Source: Planctomycetota bacterium
GTDB taxonomy: Bacteria; Planctomycetota; PLA2; JAEUHO01
DNA: 34,103 nucleotides
Assembly: GCA_029259795.1 (NCBI GenBank)
Contig: JAJDEM010000259.1
Coordinates: forward strand, 1 to 34,103
Direction of reading: 5' to 3'
The notes below the pieces were generated by a model. It ran no database searches, was not told the DNA's origin, and was given only the letters and a program-made list of their open reading frames with translations. Below, in pieces: positions 3,648 to 22,089 of this stretch (its first letter is position 1; each line of letters begins with the position of its first letter). A program made the translations under genes and the position numbers.

Positions 3648-4679
3648 ATGCGCTGTGTAGTGATCCGAGAGCACGGAAGCTACGAGAAGCTGCTCTTTGA
3701 AGAGCGTGACATTCCGACGCCGGGCCCCGGTGAGGTCCGGATCGAGGTCAAGGCGGCCGGGCTCAACCACCTCGACGCGTGGGTGCGGCGTGGCGTGCCG
3801 GGCCATCACTTCCCGCTCCCGATGGTGCCGGGCTGTGATGGCTCGGGTGTGATCGACGCGCTGGGCGCTGGAGTCCGCGGCCTCCGTGAGGGCCAGCGTG
3901 TCCTCGTGGCGCCCGGCGTGACGGACACAGACGACGCGTCGACGGCCGCGGGCCAGGACCACCTCTCGCCCAGCTACGGGATCTTCGGCGAGACCCGTGA
4001 CGGCACGTGCGCGGAGTACGTGGTGATCCCCGCGCGGAACGCGGTTCCAATCAAGGACCATGTGTCCTTCGAAGACGCCGCCGCCTTCCCGCTCGCAACG
4101 CTGACCGCTTGGAACATGGTGGTCCAGCGTGCCAAGCTCCAAGCCGGTGAGACCGTGCTCGTCCACGCGGCGGGCAGTGGGGTTTCCACGGCTGCGATCC
4201 AGATCGCGAAGCTTGCCGGGGCCTCGAAGATCATCGCGACGACTTCGACCGCCGCCAAGGCGGACCGTGCCCGCGCTCTCGGCGCCGACGAGGTCATCGA
4301 CTACGCCGACCCCGCGTGGTCGAAGCAGGTGAAGTCGGCGACTGGAGGCCGCGGCGTGGATGTGGTGGTGGACCATGTCGGCGAAGCCACGTTCGGCGGC
4401 TCGCTCAAGACCCTCGTCCGCGGCGGGCGCTACGTGTTCTGCGGCGCGACCACCGGCGCGCAGGCGACGCTGCATCTCAATCTCGTGTTCTTCAAGAACC
4501 TCGCGATTCTCGGAAGCACGATGGGCAGCCTGGGCGATGTGCACCGCATCGTGCGTCTGCTTGAAGCCGGCAAGCTCAAGCCCATCGTCGACAGCGTGCT
4601 GCCGCTGGCCGACGTCGGGGAAGCCCATCGACGCTTGGAGGCCCGCGAGGTGTTCGGCAAGTTGGTGCTCACCCCGTGA
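3648..4679 (+). CDS. Zinc-binding dehydrogenase / quinone oxidoreductase-like
   Basis: MRCVVIREHGSYEKLLFEERDIPTPGPGEVRIEVKAAGLNHLDAWVRRG...GETVLVHAAGSGVSTAAIQIAKLAGA. Start at the ATG at 3648 after an AGG-rich leader. Confidence 0.9.
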   Translation: MRCVVIREHGSYEKLLFEERDIPTPGPGEVRIEVKAAGLNHLDAWVRRGVPGHHFPLPMVPGCDGSGVIDALGAGVRGLREGQRVLVAPGVTDTDDASTAAGQDHLSPSYGIFGETRDGTCAEYVVIPARNAVPIKDHVSFEDAAAFPLATLTAWNMVVQRAKLQAGETVLVHAAGSGVSTAAIQIAKLAGASKIIATTSTAAKADRARALGADEVIDYADPAWSKQVKSATGGRGVDVVVDHVGEATFGGSLKTLVRGGRYVFCGATTGAQATLHLNLVFFKNLAILGSTMGSLGDVHRIVRLLEAGKLKPIVDSVLPLADVGEAHRRLEAREVFGKLVLTP

Positions 4680-12983: not shown

Positions 12984-14891
12984 TCAGCGCGTCTGGTAGG
13001 TGGGGTGTTGGGCGAGGATCCAGAGGAGGCCGCGGGCACGCTCCTCTGCGGTGGTGGGATCGCCCGCGGGATCAAACGGATCCGGCGTGACGGTGCCGCC
13101 TCCATCCCGCTCCGTGTCGAGGTAGGTCACCAACTCGGTACGCTCCGGTGTCGAGAGCACGACTTGGAGGCGCTCGGTGAAGGAGTCGACCGTCGCCCCG
13201 GCATCCGCCGTGGGCGTCGGGAGAAGCTGCAGTGCGTTGATTCCGAGGCTGGCTTGGATGCCCTGGGCCTGCTCGGTCACATAGTTGAGTAGGTTGGCGC
13301 GGTCGACCATCCCCTGGGCGGAGAGCCACTGCGTGCCCCCCGGCCAGCCATCGACGGTGGGTGGCTGGGTTGGGCGATGCCCCATGAGCACCAGCACCCG
13401 GTCGATCTGTACGGGATCACCGATGAGGTTGGTTGCGCGCATGAAGCCGGTGATGTGCTCGACCGGTCCCTTCACGAAACCCACGCGGGCGAGCGACGAG
13501 AAGAACGCCTCCGACTGGAAGAGCTTCATGAGGACGGGCTTGAGTTCCCAGCCGCCGGAGCGCAGGTCGTCTGCGAGTTCATCGATGACGTTCTGCGGCG
13601 GGTTGGCGTAGCAGAAGTACTGCAGGAGCGAGCGCACGATCCACTGCCCGACGCGACTCACGCCGGTGGCTGCTTCGTTCGTTCCCAAGACGATGTCGAC
13701 CATCTGGTCGTACTCGTCGACCTCGCCCGGACCCGGTGTCTGCGCCGGGATGGTCACGCCGAGCACGGTCTTCTCCGTGTGGTCGTGGCGGTTGACGTCG
13801 AACTCGATGAAGTTCTTTCCGGTCATCGAGTCGAACCGCTGGCGGTAGCCCGTGAAGGCGCGCGCGGCTTCCTCGATGTCTGTCTGGGTGTACTCGATGT
13901 CGACACCCAGACAGAAGAGCTCCAGGAACTCGCGGCCGAAGTTCTCGTTCGGCTCGCCGTCCACATTGCTGATGCCGTCGAGCCAGACGAGCATCGTGGG
14001 GTCCCGCGCCATGTCGATCAGCAGGGTGCGGAGATTGCCCGCCCCGCCGTGCCGCCACAGGTTCACATGGTCGATGAAGTAGTGGCTGTTGGCGCTGCCG
14101 AGGACCGACGTCGATGCGGCGAAGTGCTCGTGCCAGTGGAACGCGAGGTTCTCCTGGAAGGGGTTTTGGTTGAGCATGATCATGTACAGCCACCAGCGGG
14201 CGAGATCAGATGCCGAGGGAAACTCGCCGTTGGGGTCGTTTGCGTCGATGAGGTAGGCATTGCGCGCGTCGGTCTCGAGCGTGGTCGTGTCGGCGAACGA
14301 GGTCATGGCGTCGACATAGGCCGCGAGGCCGAGCTGGCCGAGCGCGTCGTAGTGGGCCTGGCTGAACCCCAGGTGGGTTCGATCGAGGAAGTAGCGCAGA
14401 TCGGCGTCGGTGATCGTCGCCTTGGGCGCGAGCGACTTCGACTCCGTCCACAACACCTCGAGGGTCACCGTGCTCGATGTCTGGCCCTCGCTGTTGCTCG
14501 CCGTCACGACGTAGCCGGTCGACGGCGCGGGCATGAGGGGCGTCCCCTGGATGGTGCCGCTCGCGTCGAGGGAGAGCCCCGGCGGCAGCGCAGGCGCCGA
14601 GACCCAGGTCGTGGGATCGCCGCCGGTCCAGCTGGCTGTGTTCGGGGTGATGGGTGCGTCGGTGCGGTAGGTCGCGGGCGACGACGCGAATGAGAGATTG
14701 GCCGGGGCGTTGCCCGCCGGCGGGGGCGTGCCGCCGCCGCCGCCGCCACAACCAAGCAGGGCGAGGCCGGGGAGGAGGAGCAGCAGGAGGCAGGCCTGGC
14801 GCATGCCTCTACGTAGGTAGGTGGCGGGCCGGTTCAGGGCATGCCGTTTCGGAATCGGTAGCGCGGAGCTGCGCATGCGGGGAGTCTGCAT
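12984..14891 (-). CDS. DUF1800 family protein (lipoprotein) with N-terminal putative Ig domain
   Basis: LALLGCGGGGG lipobox, PALPPGLSLDASGTIQGTPL Ig-like motif, and DUF1800 motifs LARWWLYMIMLNQNPFQENLAFHWHEHF, NENFGREFLELFCLGVD, EEAARAFTGYR, PVEHITGFMRA. An alternative start lies at 14804. Confidence 0.9.
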   Translation of the reverse strand: MQTPRMRSSALPIPKRHALNRPATYLRRGMRQACLLLLLLPGLALLGCGGGGGGTPPPAGNAPANLSFASSPATYRTDAPITPNTASWTGGDPTTWVSAPALPPGLSLDASGTIQGTPLMPAPSTGYVVTASNSEGQTSSTVTLEVLWTESKSLAPKATITDADLRYFLDRTHLGFSQAHYDALGQLGLAAYVDAMTSFADTTTLETDARNAYLIDANDPNGEFPSASDLARWWLYMIMLNQNPFQENLAFHWHEHFAASTSVLGSANSHYFIDHVNLWRHGGAGNLRTLLIDMARDPTMLVWLDGISNVDGEPNENFGREFLELFCLGVDIEYTQTDIEEAARAFTGYRQRFDSMTGKNFIEFDVNRHDHTEKTVLGVTIPAQTPGPGEVDEYDQMVDIVLGTNEAATGVSRVGQWIVRSLLQYFCYANPPQNVIDELADDLRSGGWELKPVLMKLFQSEAFFSSLARVGFVKGPVEHITGFMRATNLIGDPVQIDRVLVLMGHRPTQPPTVDGWPGGTQWLSAQGMVDRANLLNYVTEQAQGIQASLGINALQLLPTPTADAGATVDSFTERLQVVLSTPERTELVTYLDTERDGGGTVTPDPFDPAGDPTTAEERARGLLWILAQHPTYQTR

Positions 14892-17241: not shown

Positions 17242-18117
17242 ATGGAAACCGTACGGATCGCCGTGCCCGGAGACGAGGAGCGCCTGCTTGCATTCCTCGA
17301 GGCCCATCCCGACACGACGCTCTTCATGCAGAGCAACCTTGCTGGCGGGGGCATCGAGGATCGCGGTGAGCGCCTTCAGGCGTCCTTCGCCTGCGCCTTC
17401 GACGGCGAGACGATCGTGGGCGTCGCGGCGCACTGCTGGAACGGCATGCTCCTGGTCGAGGCACCCGTTGCCCGCGAGGCGGTGGTGCGGGCTGCGTGCG
17501 AGGCCTCGGGCCGCGCCGTGACGGGCTTCGCGGGATCCGCGCCCGAGGTCGAGGCCGCCCGCGCGATCCTCGGCCTGCAGGACGCCCCAACGACCCTCGG
17601 ATCGCGCGAGGTGCTCTATCGCCTGGCGCTCGACGCGCTGCGCGTGCCCGCCGCGCTGGCGAGCGGGGCCGTGCGTGCGCGCCGCGCCGAAGAGAGTGAC
17701 CTGGCCGCCCTGCGCCCCTTGGGCGCGGACTACCAGATCGAGGCCATCTCGGCGCAGCCCGGCCCGGCGTTGGTGGCCAATGTCGAGGCGTCGCTGCGCT
17801 CGGGGCTCGAGCGGAGGACCGTCTGGCTTGCGGAGGTCGACGGTGTGCCCGTCGCCATGAGCCGCTTCAACGCGACGACGCCCAGCGCCGTCCAGGTGGG
17901 GGGCGTGTACACGCCGCCGGCCCTGCGTTCGCGCGGCTACGCCGCCTGCGTCGTGGCCCAGTCCCTGCTCGACGCGCGCGAGGACGGCGCCTCGCGCTCG
18001 ATCCTCTTCACCGCGGAGGAGAACCTGCCTGCCCAGCGCTGCTACGAGCGCCTCGGCTACGAGACGATCGGTTTCTACGGGATCGTGCTCTTCCGCGAGG
18101 GGCATACCGTCGTCTAG
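17242..18117 (+). CDS. GNAT family N-acetyltransferase
   Basis: METVRIAVPGDEERLLAFLEAHPDTTLFMQSNL...VQVGGVYTPPALRSRGYAACVVAQSLLDAREDGASRSILFTAEENLPAQRCYERLGYETIG. GNAT acetyl-CoA motif A and C-terminal motif. Confidence 0.9.
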   Translation: METVRIAVPGDEERLLAFLEAHPDTTLFMQSNLAGGGIEDRGERLQASFACAFDGETIVGVAAHCWNGMLLVEAPVAREAVVRAACEASGRAVTGFAGSAPEVEAARAILGLQDAPTTLGSREVLYRLALDALRVPAALASGAVRARRAEESDLAALRPLGADYQIEAISAQPGPALVANVEASLRSGLERRTVWLAEVDGVPVAMSRFNATTPSAVQVGGVYTPPALRSRGYAACVVAQSLLDAREDGASRSILFTAEENLPAQRCYERLGYETIGFYGIVLFREGHTVV

Positions 18118-18200
18118 CCCGCGCTGCAGGCGGCGCGGCTGAGTCCCGGCAGGCCCGGAATCGCCTCAATCGACCACCGTGCTGCCGTCAAAAAGCTCAG

Positions 18201-18220
18201 TTTGGGAAAATATTCCCAAA
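18201..18220. promoter_or_regulatory. AT-rich palindrome TTTGGGAAAATATTCCCAAA, candidate operator for the DUF6502 run
   Basis: 8-bp perfect arms TTTGGGAA/TTCCCAAA around AATA, with 9 of 10 dyad positions complementary. It lies in the GNAT-DUF6502 intergenic region, 116 bp before the ATG. A TGCTAGGGT extended -10-like string follows at 18226-18234. Confidence 0.6.
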
Positions 18221-18335
18221 AGTGGTGCTAGGGTGTGGGCCTTCGAGGTGAGACGCGCTCCGCGCGAAGCACTTCTTGGACTACCCCCCAGCCCCGCCCA
18301 GACCCCTCCCCCCGACCGGAACCCGCAAGACCCTG

Positions 18336-19154
18336 ATGCAAGACGCCGCCGCCCTCACCTCTGCGCTCGATCGGCTCCTCGAGCCGCTCGTCGAGGTGTT
18401 GTTGCGCGGCGGCGTCGCGCACAGGGCCTTTGCGGAGATGGCCAAGCGCGCCTACGTGCGCGTGGCGGAACGCGAGGGCGGTGTCGCCGGGCGCAAGCAG
18501 AGCGCCTCACGCATCGCCGTCCGTACGGGGTTGACGCGCAAAGACGTCAGCCGGGTCCGCGCTCTGCCGCCCTTCGAGCCGGAGCAAGCCAGTGGGCGCT
18601 ACAACCGCGCGGCCCGCGTGATCACCGGATGGATCCGTGACGAGCGGTTCCAAGAGGGCGGGGAGCCCGCCCCCTTGGCCTTCGACAGCGGCGACGCAAG
18701 CTTCTCGGTCCTCGTGAAGGACTACAGCGGCGACGTGCCGCCGCGTGCGGTGCTGGACGAACTGGAGCGCGTGCGCGCTGTCGTGCGCGACGACGATGGA
18801 CGCGTCCGTCTGGTCGAGCGCGGCTACCTACCGCGTCGCGGCGAGGCCGACAAGCTCCAGATCCTGGGGACCGATGTCGCCGGCCTGATCGGGACGATAC
18901 GGCACAACCTCGACGCGGACGCTGACGAGACGCTCTTCCAGCGCAAGGTCTTCTACGACAACCTGAGCGCGGATGCCTTGCCCAAGCTCCGTGACCTCAC
19001 GGCCGACCAGGGCCAAGCGTTGCTCGAGCAACTCGATACCTGGATGGCCGCTCACGACCACGAGGTCCATCCCGAGCTCGAGGGGCCCGCCGGGCGCCGT
19101 GCAGGGATCGGCATCTACTACTTCGAGGAACCCGTCACGGAGGACCTCGCATGA
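18336..19154 (+). CDS. DUF6502 family protein with a helix-turn-helix-like segment
   Basis: LDRLLEPLVEVLLRGGVAHRAFAEMAKRAYVRVAEREGG...QSASRIAVRTGLTRKDVSRVRAL (HTH-like)...LQILGTDVAGLIGTIRHNLDADADETLFQRKVFYDNL...GIGIYYFEE. Confidence 0.8.
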   Translation: MQDAAALTSALDRLLEPLVEVLLRGGVAHRAFAEMAKRAYVRVAEREGGVAGRKQSASRIAVRTGLTRKDVSRVRALPPFEPEQASGRYNRAARVITGWIRDERFQEGGEPAPLAFDSGDASFSVLVKDYSGDVPPRAVLDELERVRAVVRDDDGRVRLVERGYLPRRGEADKLQILGTDVAGLIGTIRHNLDADADETLFQRKVFYDNLSADALPKLRDLTADQGQALLEQLDTWMAAHDHEVHPELEGPAGRRAGIGIYYFEEPVTEDLA

Positions 19155-19357
19155 CGCGCTCCACGTGCCTTGGATTCCTGTCCCTGCCGCAGTTCACGGG
19201 CGCCGAGGGCGAAGAGCTGCTGGCGCTCGTCGAGGCCTGGATGGCCAAGCACGACCGATTTCGCGGTCCTGACGTCCAGAACAAGCGTCCGACGCAGGGG
19301 GCCATAGGCATTTACTACATCCGGGATACGGCTCTGGGGGAGGACGACCAGCGATGA
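19151..19357 (+). CDS. 68-aa protein resembling the C-terminal tail of the upstream DUF6502 protein
   Basis: ATGA overlap with both neighbours. FTGAEGEELLALVEAWMAKHDRF...GAIGIYY aligns by eye to LTADQGQALLEQLDTWMAAHDHE...AGIGIYY of the upstream gene. Confidence 0.75.
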   Translation: MTRSTCLGFLSLPQFTGAEGEELLALVEAWMAKHDRFRGPDVQNKRPTQGAIGIYYIRDTALGEDDQR

Positions 19358-20784
19358 CACGGTACCGTTCGCGAGTCTGGGCGCTTGTTGGCGCAGTTTG
19401 TCTGGCTCTGTCCTTGGGCGCCTGCGGCGGCGGCAGCGGCCCCGTGGTCGGCGGCGGCATTGGTGGCACCGGCAAGGTCGGCCTCAAGTTCGGTGGCGTG
19501 CGTACCGCCGGCGGCGTCACCGTGGGCGGCACCGTGTTCACGACGGCCGGAGCGATCGTACGCATTGGTGGCGAGGTCGTGCTTCCGGCAGCGCTTCGTG
19601 ACGGTCATGTCGCTCTCGTCGAGGGCGTGATCAACGGAGCGACCGGTGTGGCCGACACCATCACCGTCGAGGAAGTCATCAAGGGCACCCTGACCGGACG
19701 ACCCAGCGCGAACATCCTCACCGTCCAGGGCCAGCAGGTCGAGGTCGACGAGCGCACGGTCTACGGTCCGGGCATCGCGCCCTCTTCGGCGGATGGACTC
19801 TCCCTCGGCAACTTGCTCAAGGTGTGGGGCTTCGTCAAGGGTCCCGGGCTCGTCCGCGCGACGCGTATCCAGCGCGAGGACAGTCTCTCGGAGATCCGCA
19901 TCGTCGGCGTCGCCCGCAATGTGGACGCGAATCTCGACACCTTCAACATCGGCACGCAGGACATCGACCACAGCGCGGCCGACGTCAGCAAGCTGCCCGA
20001 AGCCGACCCCAGGGACGACGATCTCGTCCGCGTGCGTGGCGGTCCGGTTCTCGATGGCGATGGCCGCGTGACGGCCAGCCGTGTGGAGCCGATTGGCGTT
20101 GTGGATCAACCGGACAACGCCGAGACCGAGGTCGAAGGCTTCGTCACAGCGGTCTTCCCCGGCCAGGGCTTTCGGCTCGGCGCAGCCAAGGTCCAGACGA
20201 CGGCAGCGACCGAGTATGTCGGTGGCGAAGAGGCCGACATCCTCCTCGGCGTCGAGCTCGAAGCCGAGGGAGCGCTTGTGGGCGGCGTCCTTGTCGCGCG
20301 CAAGGTCAAGTTCAAGGGCGGCGTGCGCCTCGAAGGCGATATCGCCGCACTCGCCGGCGATCTGCTCAGCATCAAGGGGCTGCCTGGTCTCGTCATTCGA
20401 ATCGATGGACTCACCGAGTTCGATGGCGATGCCGCGAGTCTGGTCGACCTCTTGGTCGGGGATCATGTCGAGATCCGCGCCCGGGTTGCGGGCCCCTCCA
20501 CCGTTGTCGGCCTGCAGGTCAAGGAGACGGCAGCCGACAGCGATTTGATCATTCAGGGCCCGGTTGACGACGTACCACCCCCCTCGAACCCCGTCTTCTC
20601 GATTCTCGGCGTAGCGATCGACGCGTCGACCATCGTGGATGGCAAGTTTGAGTCCCCAAACGGTACGCCGCTCAACCGGGCCAATTTCTTTGCTCTGCTT
20701 CGTGGGGGCGTCCTCGTCAAGGTCGAGGGTCAGCGCGTCGGCGTTGCTGCCGTCTGGGATGAAGCCGAGATCGAAGACGAGTAG
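19354..20784 (+). CDS. DUF5666-like repeat lipoprotein
   Basis: Signal plus lipobox LSLGACGGGSG, then about six OB-like repeats (e.g. VEGVINGATGVADTITVEEV; VEGFVTAVFPGQGFRLGAAKVQTTAATEYVGG; LEGDIAALAGDLLSIKGL). Confidence 0.82.
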   Translation: MTRYRSRVWALVGAVCLALSLGACGGGSGPVVGGGIGGTGKVGLKFGGVRTAGGVTVGGTVFTTAGAIVRIGGEVVLPAALRDGHVALVEGVINGATGVADTITVEEVIKGTLTGRPSANILTVQGQQVEVDERTVYGPGIAPSSADGLSLGNLLKVWGFVKGPGLVRATRIQREDSLSEIRIVGVARNVDANLDTFNIGTQDIDHSAADVSKLPEADPRDDDLVRVRGGPVLDGDGRVTASRVEPIGVVDQPDNAETEVEGFVTAVFPGQGFRLGAAKVQTTAATEYVGGEEADILLGVELEAEGALVGGVLVARKVKFKGGVRLEGDIAALAGDLLSIKGLPGLVIRIDGLTEFDGDAASLVDLLVGDHVEIRARVAGPSTVVGLQVKETAADSDLIIQGPVDDVPPPSNPVFSILGVAIDASTIVDGKFESPNGTPLNRANFFALLRGGVLVKVEGQRVGVAAVWDEAEIEDE

Positions 20785-20793
20785 GCTGGGTAG

Positions 20794-22089
20794 ATGCCCA
20801 ACCGAAGTAGTGCAACCGCCATCCTCGTACTTCTCGTCCTGGTGGCAGGCCTGGCCGTCTGGCTGGAGCCTGCACCGGTCATCGCTGACGATGAGGGCGC
20901 TGAGATTGCCGGCGTCGAATGGCTGACGGATCTCGACGTCGCGCGCGCCAAGGCGCGCGAGAGCGGGCGACCGATTCTCGCGGTCTTCCGCTGAGAACCA
21001 TGAAAGGACTGCAAGTCCTTCGACGGGCAGGTTGTCCGTGCGTCCCCTGAACTAAGCAAAGCCGCGAAAGAGTATGTCTGCGTGCGCGTCACGAACATGA
21101 AGGGCGTGGATGTGCGCACCTTCCACTTCGACTTCGATCTGACCTTCGCCGCGCTCCTCATGCACCCTGACGGAACGATCCACCACACGTACGCGGGGCG
21201 CGACTGGACGGATCCGCAGTCGCATCTCTCGGTCGGCGCCTTCGTCGACGTCCTGCGCCGGGGTCGCCTCGACCACGACGCTTACGCAAAGAGCCCTCGA
21301 CCCCCCAAGCGGCAGAAGCCCTTGAGCGTCGATCAGATGCCGTGGATGAAGCGCCGACCCAAGCAGCCGGATTGCTACCACTGCCACAACGTGAACGACG
21401 CTCGCTTCGGCGATGCGCGTGACCGCGGCACCTTCAAGCGCCGTGACGCGTGGACATGGCCGGATCCGGTACAGGTCGGGCTGCGGCTGGACAAGACCAT
21501 CCAGACGTCCGTCGTCGAGGTCGTGAAGGGCTCAGCCGCCGCCAAGGCGGGCCTGCAGCCCGGGGATCGCCTGCGCACCCTAGGGGGCGCCTCGGTTCTG
21601 ACGTTCGGTGACGTACAGCGTGTGCTCGATGCGAGCGCAGCGGGCGCCGAGACGATCCCCGTAGTCTTCCTGCGCGATGGCGCTACGAAGAATGCGCGCC
21701 TGCGCCTCGCCAAGGGCTGGAAGCAGCCGACGCCGCTGGTGTTCTCCTGGCGCTCGACAAAGTGGCCCATGGCTCCGAAGCCCGGCTTCGGCGGGAGGCC
21801 CCTCGACGCCGCCCAGAAGCGCAAGCTTGGCATCGACAAGAGCCACTTCGCGTTCCGGATCGGCTACCTCGTGACATGGGGCGAGAACGCGTACACGGGT
21901 CGCAACGCCGCGAAGGCAGGGCTGCGCAAGGGTGATGTGGTGGTGTCGGTCGGAGGCAAGACGGACCTCACGTCGATGAATCACTTCCACGCGTGGTTCC
22001 GACTCACGCAGAAGCCTGGCAGCACGGTCGTGGTGAAGGTCCTCCGAAACGGCAAGCCGAAGACCTTCAAGTTGTCCGTCCTGAAGTAG
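20794..22089 (+). CDS. Predicted selenoprotein: exported thioredoxin-like UxxUxxC protein with a CxxCH motif and two PDZ-like domains (TGA at 20992 and 21001 read as Sec)
   Basis: 20794-20994 and 21082-22089 share one frame, and only TGA 20992-20994 and TGA 21001-21003 interrupt it. Readthrough gives ...ARESGRPILAVFRUEPUKDCKSFDGQVVRASPELSKAAKEYVCVRVTNMKGVDV.... PDZ-like segments: VVEVVKGSAAAKAGLQPGDRLRTLGG and NAAKAGLRKGDVVVSVGG. 431 aa if both TGA are recoded. Confidence 0.82.
21004..21020 (+). other. Candidate bSECIS-like hairpin 1 (for the UGA at 20992)
   Basis: AAGGACT-GCA-AGTCCTT is a perfect 7-bp stem with a 3-nt loop starting with G. There are 16 nt between the first UGA and the loop G. 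Confidence 0.5.
21023..21039 (+). other. Candidate bSECIS-like hairpin 2 (for the UGA at 21001)
   Basis: ACGGGCA-GGT-TGTCCGT is a 7-bp stem with one G-U pair and loop GGU. There are 26 nt between the second UGA and the loop G. Confidence 0.55.

Follow-up and report, generated by a model that had tools for sequence, protein, structure and literature searches.

The 20-bp palindrome TTTGGGAAAATATTCCCAAA at positions 18201-18220 (no strand assigned) of the window, that is, of the whole 34,103-nt stretch of DNA analyzed here, very probably serves as operator for the DUF6502 protein whose gene lies downstream; this protein most likely represses its own DUF6502-DUF5666 operon. An autoregulatory operator had been proposed in an earlier reading of the bare sequence (the sequence-only reading), and comparative data lend this proposal support, as the site is conserved upstream of DUF6502 genes (65/169) and its core appears to covary with the recognition helix of the protein. 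The computational support covers conservation, architecture, the association with DUF6502 and DUF5666 genes and the covariation with residues 68 and 69. In addition, structure models provide a strong lead towards a fold resembling that of HetR, the master regulator of heterocyst differentiation in cyanobacteria, whose own fold was described as novel.

The palindrome and the operon downstream

The palindrome consists of the half-sites TTTGGGA (18201-18207) and TCCCAAA (18214-18220). Counted by hand, the dyad pairs at positions 1-8 and 10 and not at position 9 (A/A), which bears out, at exactly 18201-18220, the 8-bp perfect arms and nine of ten dyad pairs described in the sequence-only reading. 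A search for TTTGGGAA-N4-TTCCCAAA with up to three mismatches returned a single match in the window and none in 100 dinucleotide-preserving shuffles, in agreement with the earlier impression that the window holds no second copy. The genome-wide search suggested at that time identified the palindrome as the sole exact copy in the 4.29-Mb assembly, the next best sites carrying three mismatches. The element lies within a 218-bp gap between the stop of a GNAT gene at 18117 and the DUF6502 ATG at 18336, and its end is separated from this ATG by 115 nt. The extended -10 string reported just downstream, TGCTAGGGT (18226-18234, + strand), is not supported as a promoter: a consensus scan of 18100-18360 detected neither a sigma-70-like promoter nor a terminator, and since no sigma-70-like promoter was found, the string is retained as a weak candidate. 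A similarly placed TGCTATCGT is present at one related locus (L013).

The DUF6502 gene (18336-19154, + strand) encodes a predicted HetR-like DNA-binding regulator of 272 aa, and its earlier annotation is correct, with residues 6-266 matching PF20112 at an E-value of 7e-78 (261.6 bits, cut-off 27). A predicted helix-turn-helix comprises residues 57-76 (codons at 18504-18563, + strand), including the recognition helix at residues 68-76 with R68 and K69. The gene is followed by a 68-aa ORF (19151-19357, + strand), which resembles a stand-alone copy of the C-terminal, hood-like region of DUF6502 (E 3.8e-5 against a DUF6502 C-terminal profile; E 0.24 against PF20112 positions 219-262), and by a DUF5666 lipoprotein-like gene (19354-20784, + strand; PF18914, E 2.3e-26), the presumed regulated target in the operon. 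ATGA start/stop overlaps link the three genes. The same genome contains a second DUF6502 operon (L005/L024; L024 from 9680), which begins with an acidic lipoprotein gene and is preceded by two degenerate tandem palindromes, AATGGGATAGTTGTCCCAAA and AGTGGGCCATGTGTCCCAAC. Elsewhere in the window, 21082-22089 encodes a protein near the Trx7/PDZ (seleno)protein family (NF041199, 297 bits, slightly below the cut-off) and 12984-14891 (- strand) a DUF1800 protein (PF08811, E 1.5e-79).

Distribution of the site and its putative regulon

Starting from the protein, a site was found within 70 bp upstream of 65 of 169 distinct DUF6502 genes (0.26 expected from shuffles) and within 300 bp upstream of 79 of the 169 (1.7 expected). 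The conservation upstream of DUF6502 orthologues on which the sequence-only reading had staked its proposal is thus present, and it extends over several phyla. About half of the DUF6502 upstream regions contain no recognizable site, a lack attributed to genes inside operons, to different spacings or to different operators. The same dyad precedes DUF6502 in relatives as TTTGGGAATATAATACCAAA (L008), TTTGGGATTTTATTCCCAAA (L009), TTTGGGAATATTTTCCCAAC (L012) and TTTGGGAAAAAAAGCCCAAT (L011), while at L007 and L013 an acidic lipoprotein gene lies between the dyad and DUF6502. In relatives of the same genus, the palindrome has likewise been kept ahead of the DUF6502 operons. A set of HRKD/HRRE-type DUF6502 genes (L267, L272, L273, L219, L220, L280 and L281), which includes alphaproteobacterial plasmid copies, is associated with GTGGGA-type sites of the form GGG-N7-CCC, 1 bp shorter than in the main group. 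The family occurs in 78 of 274 sampled Gammaproteobacteria and also in Planctomycetota, Desulfobacterota and Alphaproteobacteria; none was detected in the viral contigs searched.

Starting from the pattern, an exact search for TTGACN9TTTGGGAN6TCCCAAA among GTDB species contigs (approximately 85,000 species genomes) yielded 24 loci, compared with about two expected by chance according to our own arithmetic. These loci belong to Gammaproteobacteria, Desulfobacterota and Planctomycetota, plus one apparent chance match in a CPR genome. At twelve of them a DUF6502 reading frame follows directly, in one case (L051) as a decayed copy, two are one gene further upstream, one sits at a DUF6502 start that is truncated and four precede DUF5666-like genes identified by inspection; DUF6502 is encoded in 19 of the 22 genomes with such loci. 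The decayed copy at L051 (approximately 4365-4622) is a second DUF6502 copy whose promoter-operator is still perfect. Among gammaproteobacterial genomes drawn irrespective of the motif, WTTGGGAN6TCCCAAW occurs in 20 of 41 with DUF6502 and in 2 of 60 without it (Fisher p 5e-8), where the former proportion may overstate the rate among all carriers because these 41 are the higher-scoring ones. The 30 distinct sites comprise 12 directly before DUF5666, as judged with a profile built from operator-linked genes, seven before DUF6502 and 11 before neither family; of these 11, two are found before lipoprotein genes of other kinds and two before the gene of a small secreted protein rich in glycine. Outside the genome of the window, DUF5666 genes thus have an operator copy of their own. 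At L147, L148, L150 and L153, operators without DUF6502 or DUF5666 neighbors are followed by genes for small secreted proteins rich in glycine or for other lipoproteins, which are possible further members of the regulon. Among the papers searched, none dealt with DUF6502 (PF20112) or with the operator string.

Promoter architecture and operator recognition

The arrangement usually seen in Gammaproteobacteria, Desulfobacterota and Planctomycetota is TTGACW-N8-[wTTGGGA-N6-TCCCAAw]-1..2 nt-ATG. Palindrome positions 9-14 are TATAAT or close to it, which places the -10 box inside the palindrome in these relatives, with a spacer of 16 bp to the -35 hexamer. Transcription would start at the ATG or right beside it, yielding a leaderless mRNA. 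Operators of autorepressors positioned over the -10 box offer a parallel, as they likewise place a dyad on the core promoter of the regulator gene; here, in contrast, the ATG follows 1-2 nt past the operator, and some loci are mirror-symmetric. At the latter (L035, L046 and L049, also L123 and L134), TTGAC flanks the palindrome on both sides and the N-terminal codons recur on either strand, resembling the product of an inversion and duplication of the promoter together with the gene start. The window copy is atypical in its 115-nt leader and the absence of a good -35 where one would be expected. In the tree, its closest sister is L011, which is leaderless, and for this reason the longer leader in the window appears to be derived.

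That DUF6502 binds the palindrome and mainly activates transcription, as HetR does at several promoters, is considered unlikely. The -35 and -10 elements of the window copy are weak, as is frequent in activator-dependent promoters, and would be compatible with such a role. HetR has itself been described as a positively autoregulated activator (PMC4649674). In most relatives, however, the promoter is near-consensus and its -10 box is covered by the operator, a placement that favors occlusion.

The identity of the binding protein was addressed with a scan of the upstream regions that scored dyad symmetry and promoter hexamers and gave zero weight to GGG. This GGG-blind scan placed 49 of 168 upstream regions above the 1% shuffle threshold, with 1.7 expected. 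Proteins with R68 and K69, the residues that start the predicted recognition helix (H68-76), had GGG in at least one half-site in 40 of 45 cases, whereas AGG was present in all three cases with L68 and a GAA core in the single case with I69. Only four proteins other than R68K69 had a significant site, and independent substitutions are few because the three L68 genes represent one clade; a decayed N69 copy (L051) was left out of the substitution count. As leads only, GTA occurs twice upstream of the gene of a K69P protein (L185), at a score slightly under the threshold, and the operators of two K69H proteins (L019, L022) also score below it. Fisher tests of core against residues gave p-values of 2e-4 and 6e-4, with relatedness ignored. 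Other residues must matter too, since L017 and L082 are R68K69 yet have GGT and GTG cores. With these few independent substitutions, changes in the operator go together with changes in the DUF6502 recognition helix, making DUF6502 the most likely binder; direct reading of the operator by this protein would predict such covariation, and another binder would be hard to reconcile with it.

An unrelated regulator that binds the palindrome and controls both DUF6502 and DUF5666 genes could account for the 11 of 30 sites preceding genes of neither family, but is quite improbable given that the core changes with DUF6502 residues 68 and 69 and that few genomes lacking DUF6502 contain the site (2/60). 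Even less credence is given to a chance AT-rich dyad with no function in the genome of the window: the copy there lacks a canonical promoter context and is the single perfect one in the genome, but 0 of 100 shuffles reproduced it and conservation in same-genus relatives contradicts this reading. Finally, a terminator or RNA hairpin of the upstream GNAT gene, suggested by an inverted repeat 3' of a gene end, can practically be dismissed, as there is no U-tract and no terminator call, and in relatives the palindrome is pinned to promoters and start codons beside unrelated upstream genes.

Autorepression by DUF6502 would then proceed as follows. The protein is predicted to be a dimeric helix-turn-helix regulator in which Arg68 would read the first G and Lys69 the next two G of the GGG in each half-site. 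In most relatives the operator overlies the -10 box of a promoter of the form TTGACW-N16-TATAAT, with the start codon 1-2 nt on, so that RNA polymerase should be excluded and the gene repressed once the dimer is bound. The probable outcome is negative autoregulation of the DUF6502 operon, with separate DUF5666 lipoprotein genes as putative co-regulated targets. An inducing signal, perhaps acting via the C-terminal domain, would lift the repression, and the window copy, with its 115-nt leader and no canonical -35, may work likewise.

Resemblance to HetR and its implications

AlphaFold models were of moderate confidence for the DUF6502 proteins of the window (pLDDT 77, pTM 0.54) and of a Desulfobacterota representative (pLDDT 76.8, pTM 0.51). 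The first PDB match over the whole chain was HetR in both cases: 4izz for the window model (probability 1.00, TM 0.47/0.45) and 4j00 for the Desulfobacterota model (probability 0.99, TM 0.34/0.33), each with an E-value of about 3e-3 and an rmsd above 9 Å. The two models are not independent of the family alignment because both rest on the same 15 sequences. The winged-helix regulators MarR and IclR gave partial fold matches as well; these differ in having lower probability, in covering part of the chain only and in the absence of a sequence match.

HetR combines a DNA-binding, a flap and a hood domain, and PatS peptides bind to the hood (PMC4649674, PMC4192349). It requires a GGG-N5-CCC target, and in the HetR-DNA structure Lys73 contacts g5/g6 (PMC4649674). 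In our own manual alignment, HetR LEPKRVK is aligned with DUF6502 LSRKEVK and Lys73 pairs with K69. The two proteins are of similar size and share a GGG...CCC inverted-repeat target, a recognition-helix lysine facing a run of G and, in the case of HetR, known autoregulation; by our own count, both the Lys73 contacts and the DUF6502 GGG are centered about 5.5 bp from the dyad axis. The targets differ in spacing, GGG-N5-CCC for HetR versus GGGA-N6-TCCC, equivalent to GGG-N8-CCC, for DUF6502 (GGG-N7-CCC in the HRKD subfamily), and the target genes are different. Inhibition by the PatS peptide RGSGR at the hood is characteristic of HetR; we know of no PatS peptide for DUF6502.

Sequence methods do not support the relation, and membership in the HetR family, represented in Pfam by PF03574 and PF18460, is therefore not claimed. 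A Pfam search with the window DUF6502 at E-values up to 10 returned only PF20112 and insignificant families, with no match to PF03574 or PF18460, and PF18460 (HetR_C) was nowhere above the cut-off in the genome search. Comparisons by hhalign with single HetR sequences reached E-values of about 0.1, equalled by shuffled HetR, and HMMER results were insignificant. Plasmids and viral contigs provided no HetR relatives for building a HetR profile. A PDB sequence search with the DUF6502 profile yielded just two spurious matches, to a designed repeat protein and to a receptor. If the DUF6502 region that the 68-aa protein resembles corresponds to the HetR hood, it may be speculated that this small protein forms mixed dimers or competes for ligand.

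A slightly better than even case can be made that DUF6502 proteins are HetR-like factors outside cyanobacteria with their own operator code and a DUF5666 lipoprotein regulon, potentially tuned in some operons, including that of the window, by a separate hood-domain protein through mixed dimers, and that HetR is one branch of a wider superfamily. A domain of unknown function would thereby become a testable transcription factor with a predicted operator, contact residues and target genes. Should the resemblance to HetR hold, a cyanobacterial developmental regulator would gain relatives in many bacteria, opening a route to asking about the origin of HetR.
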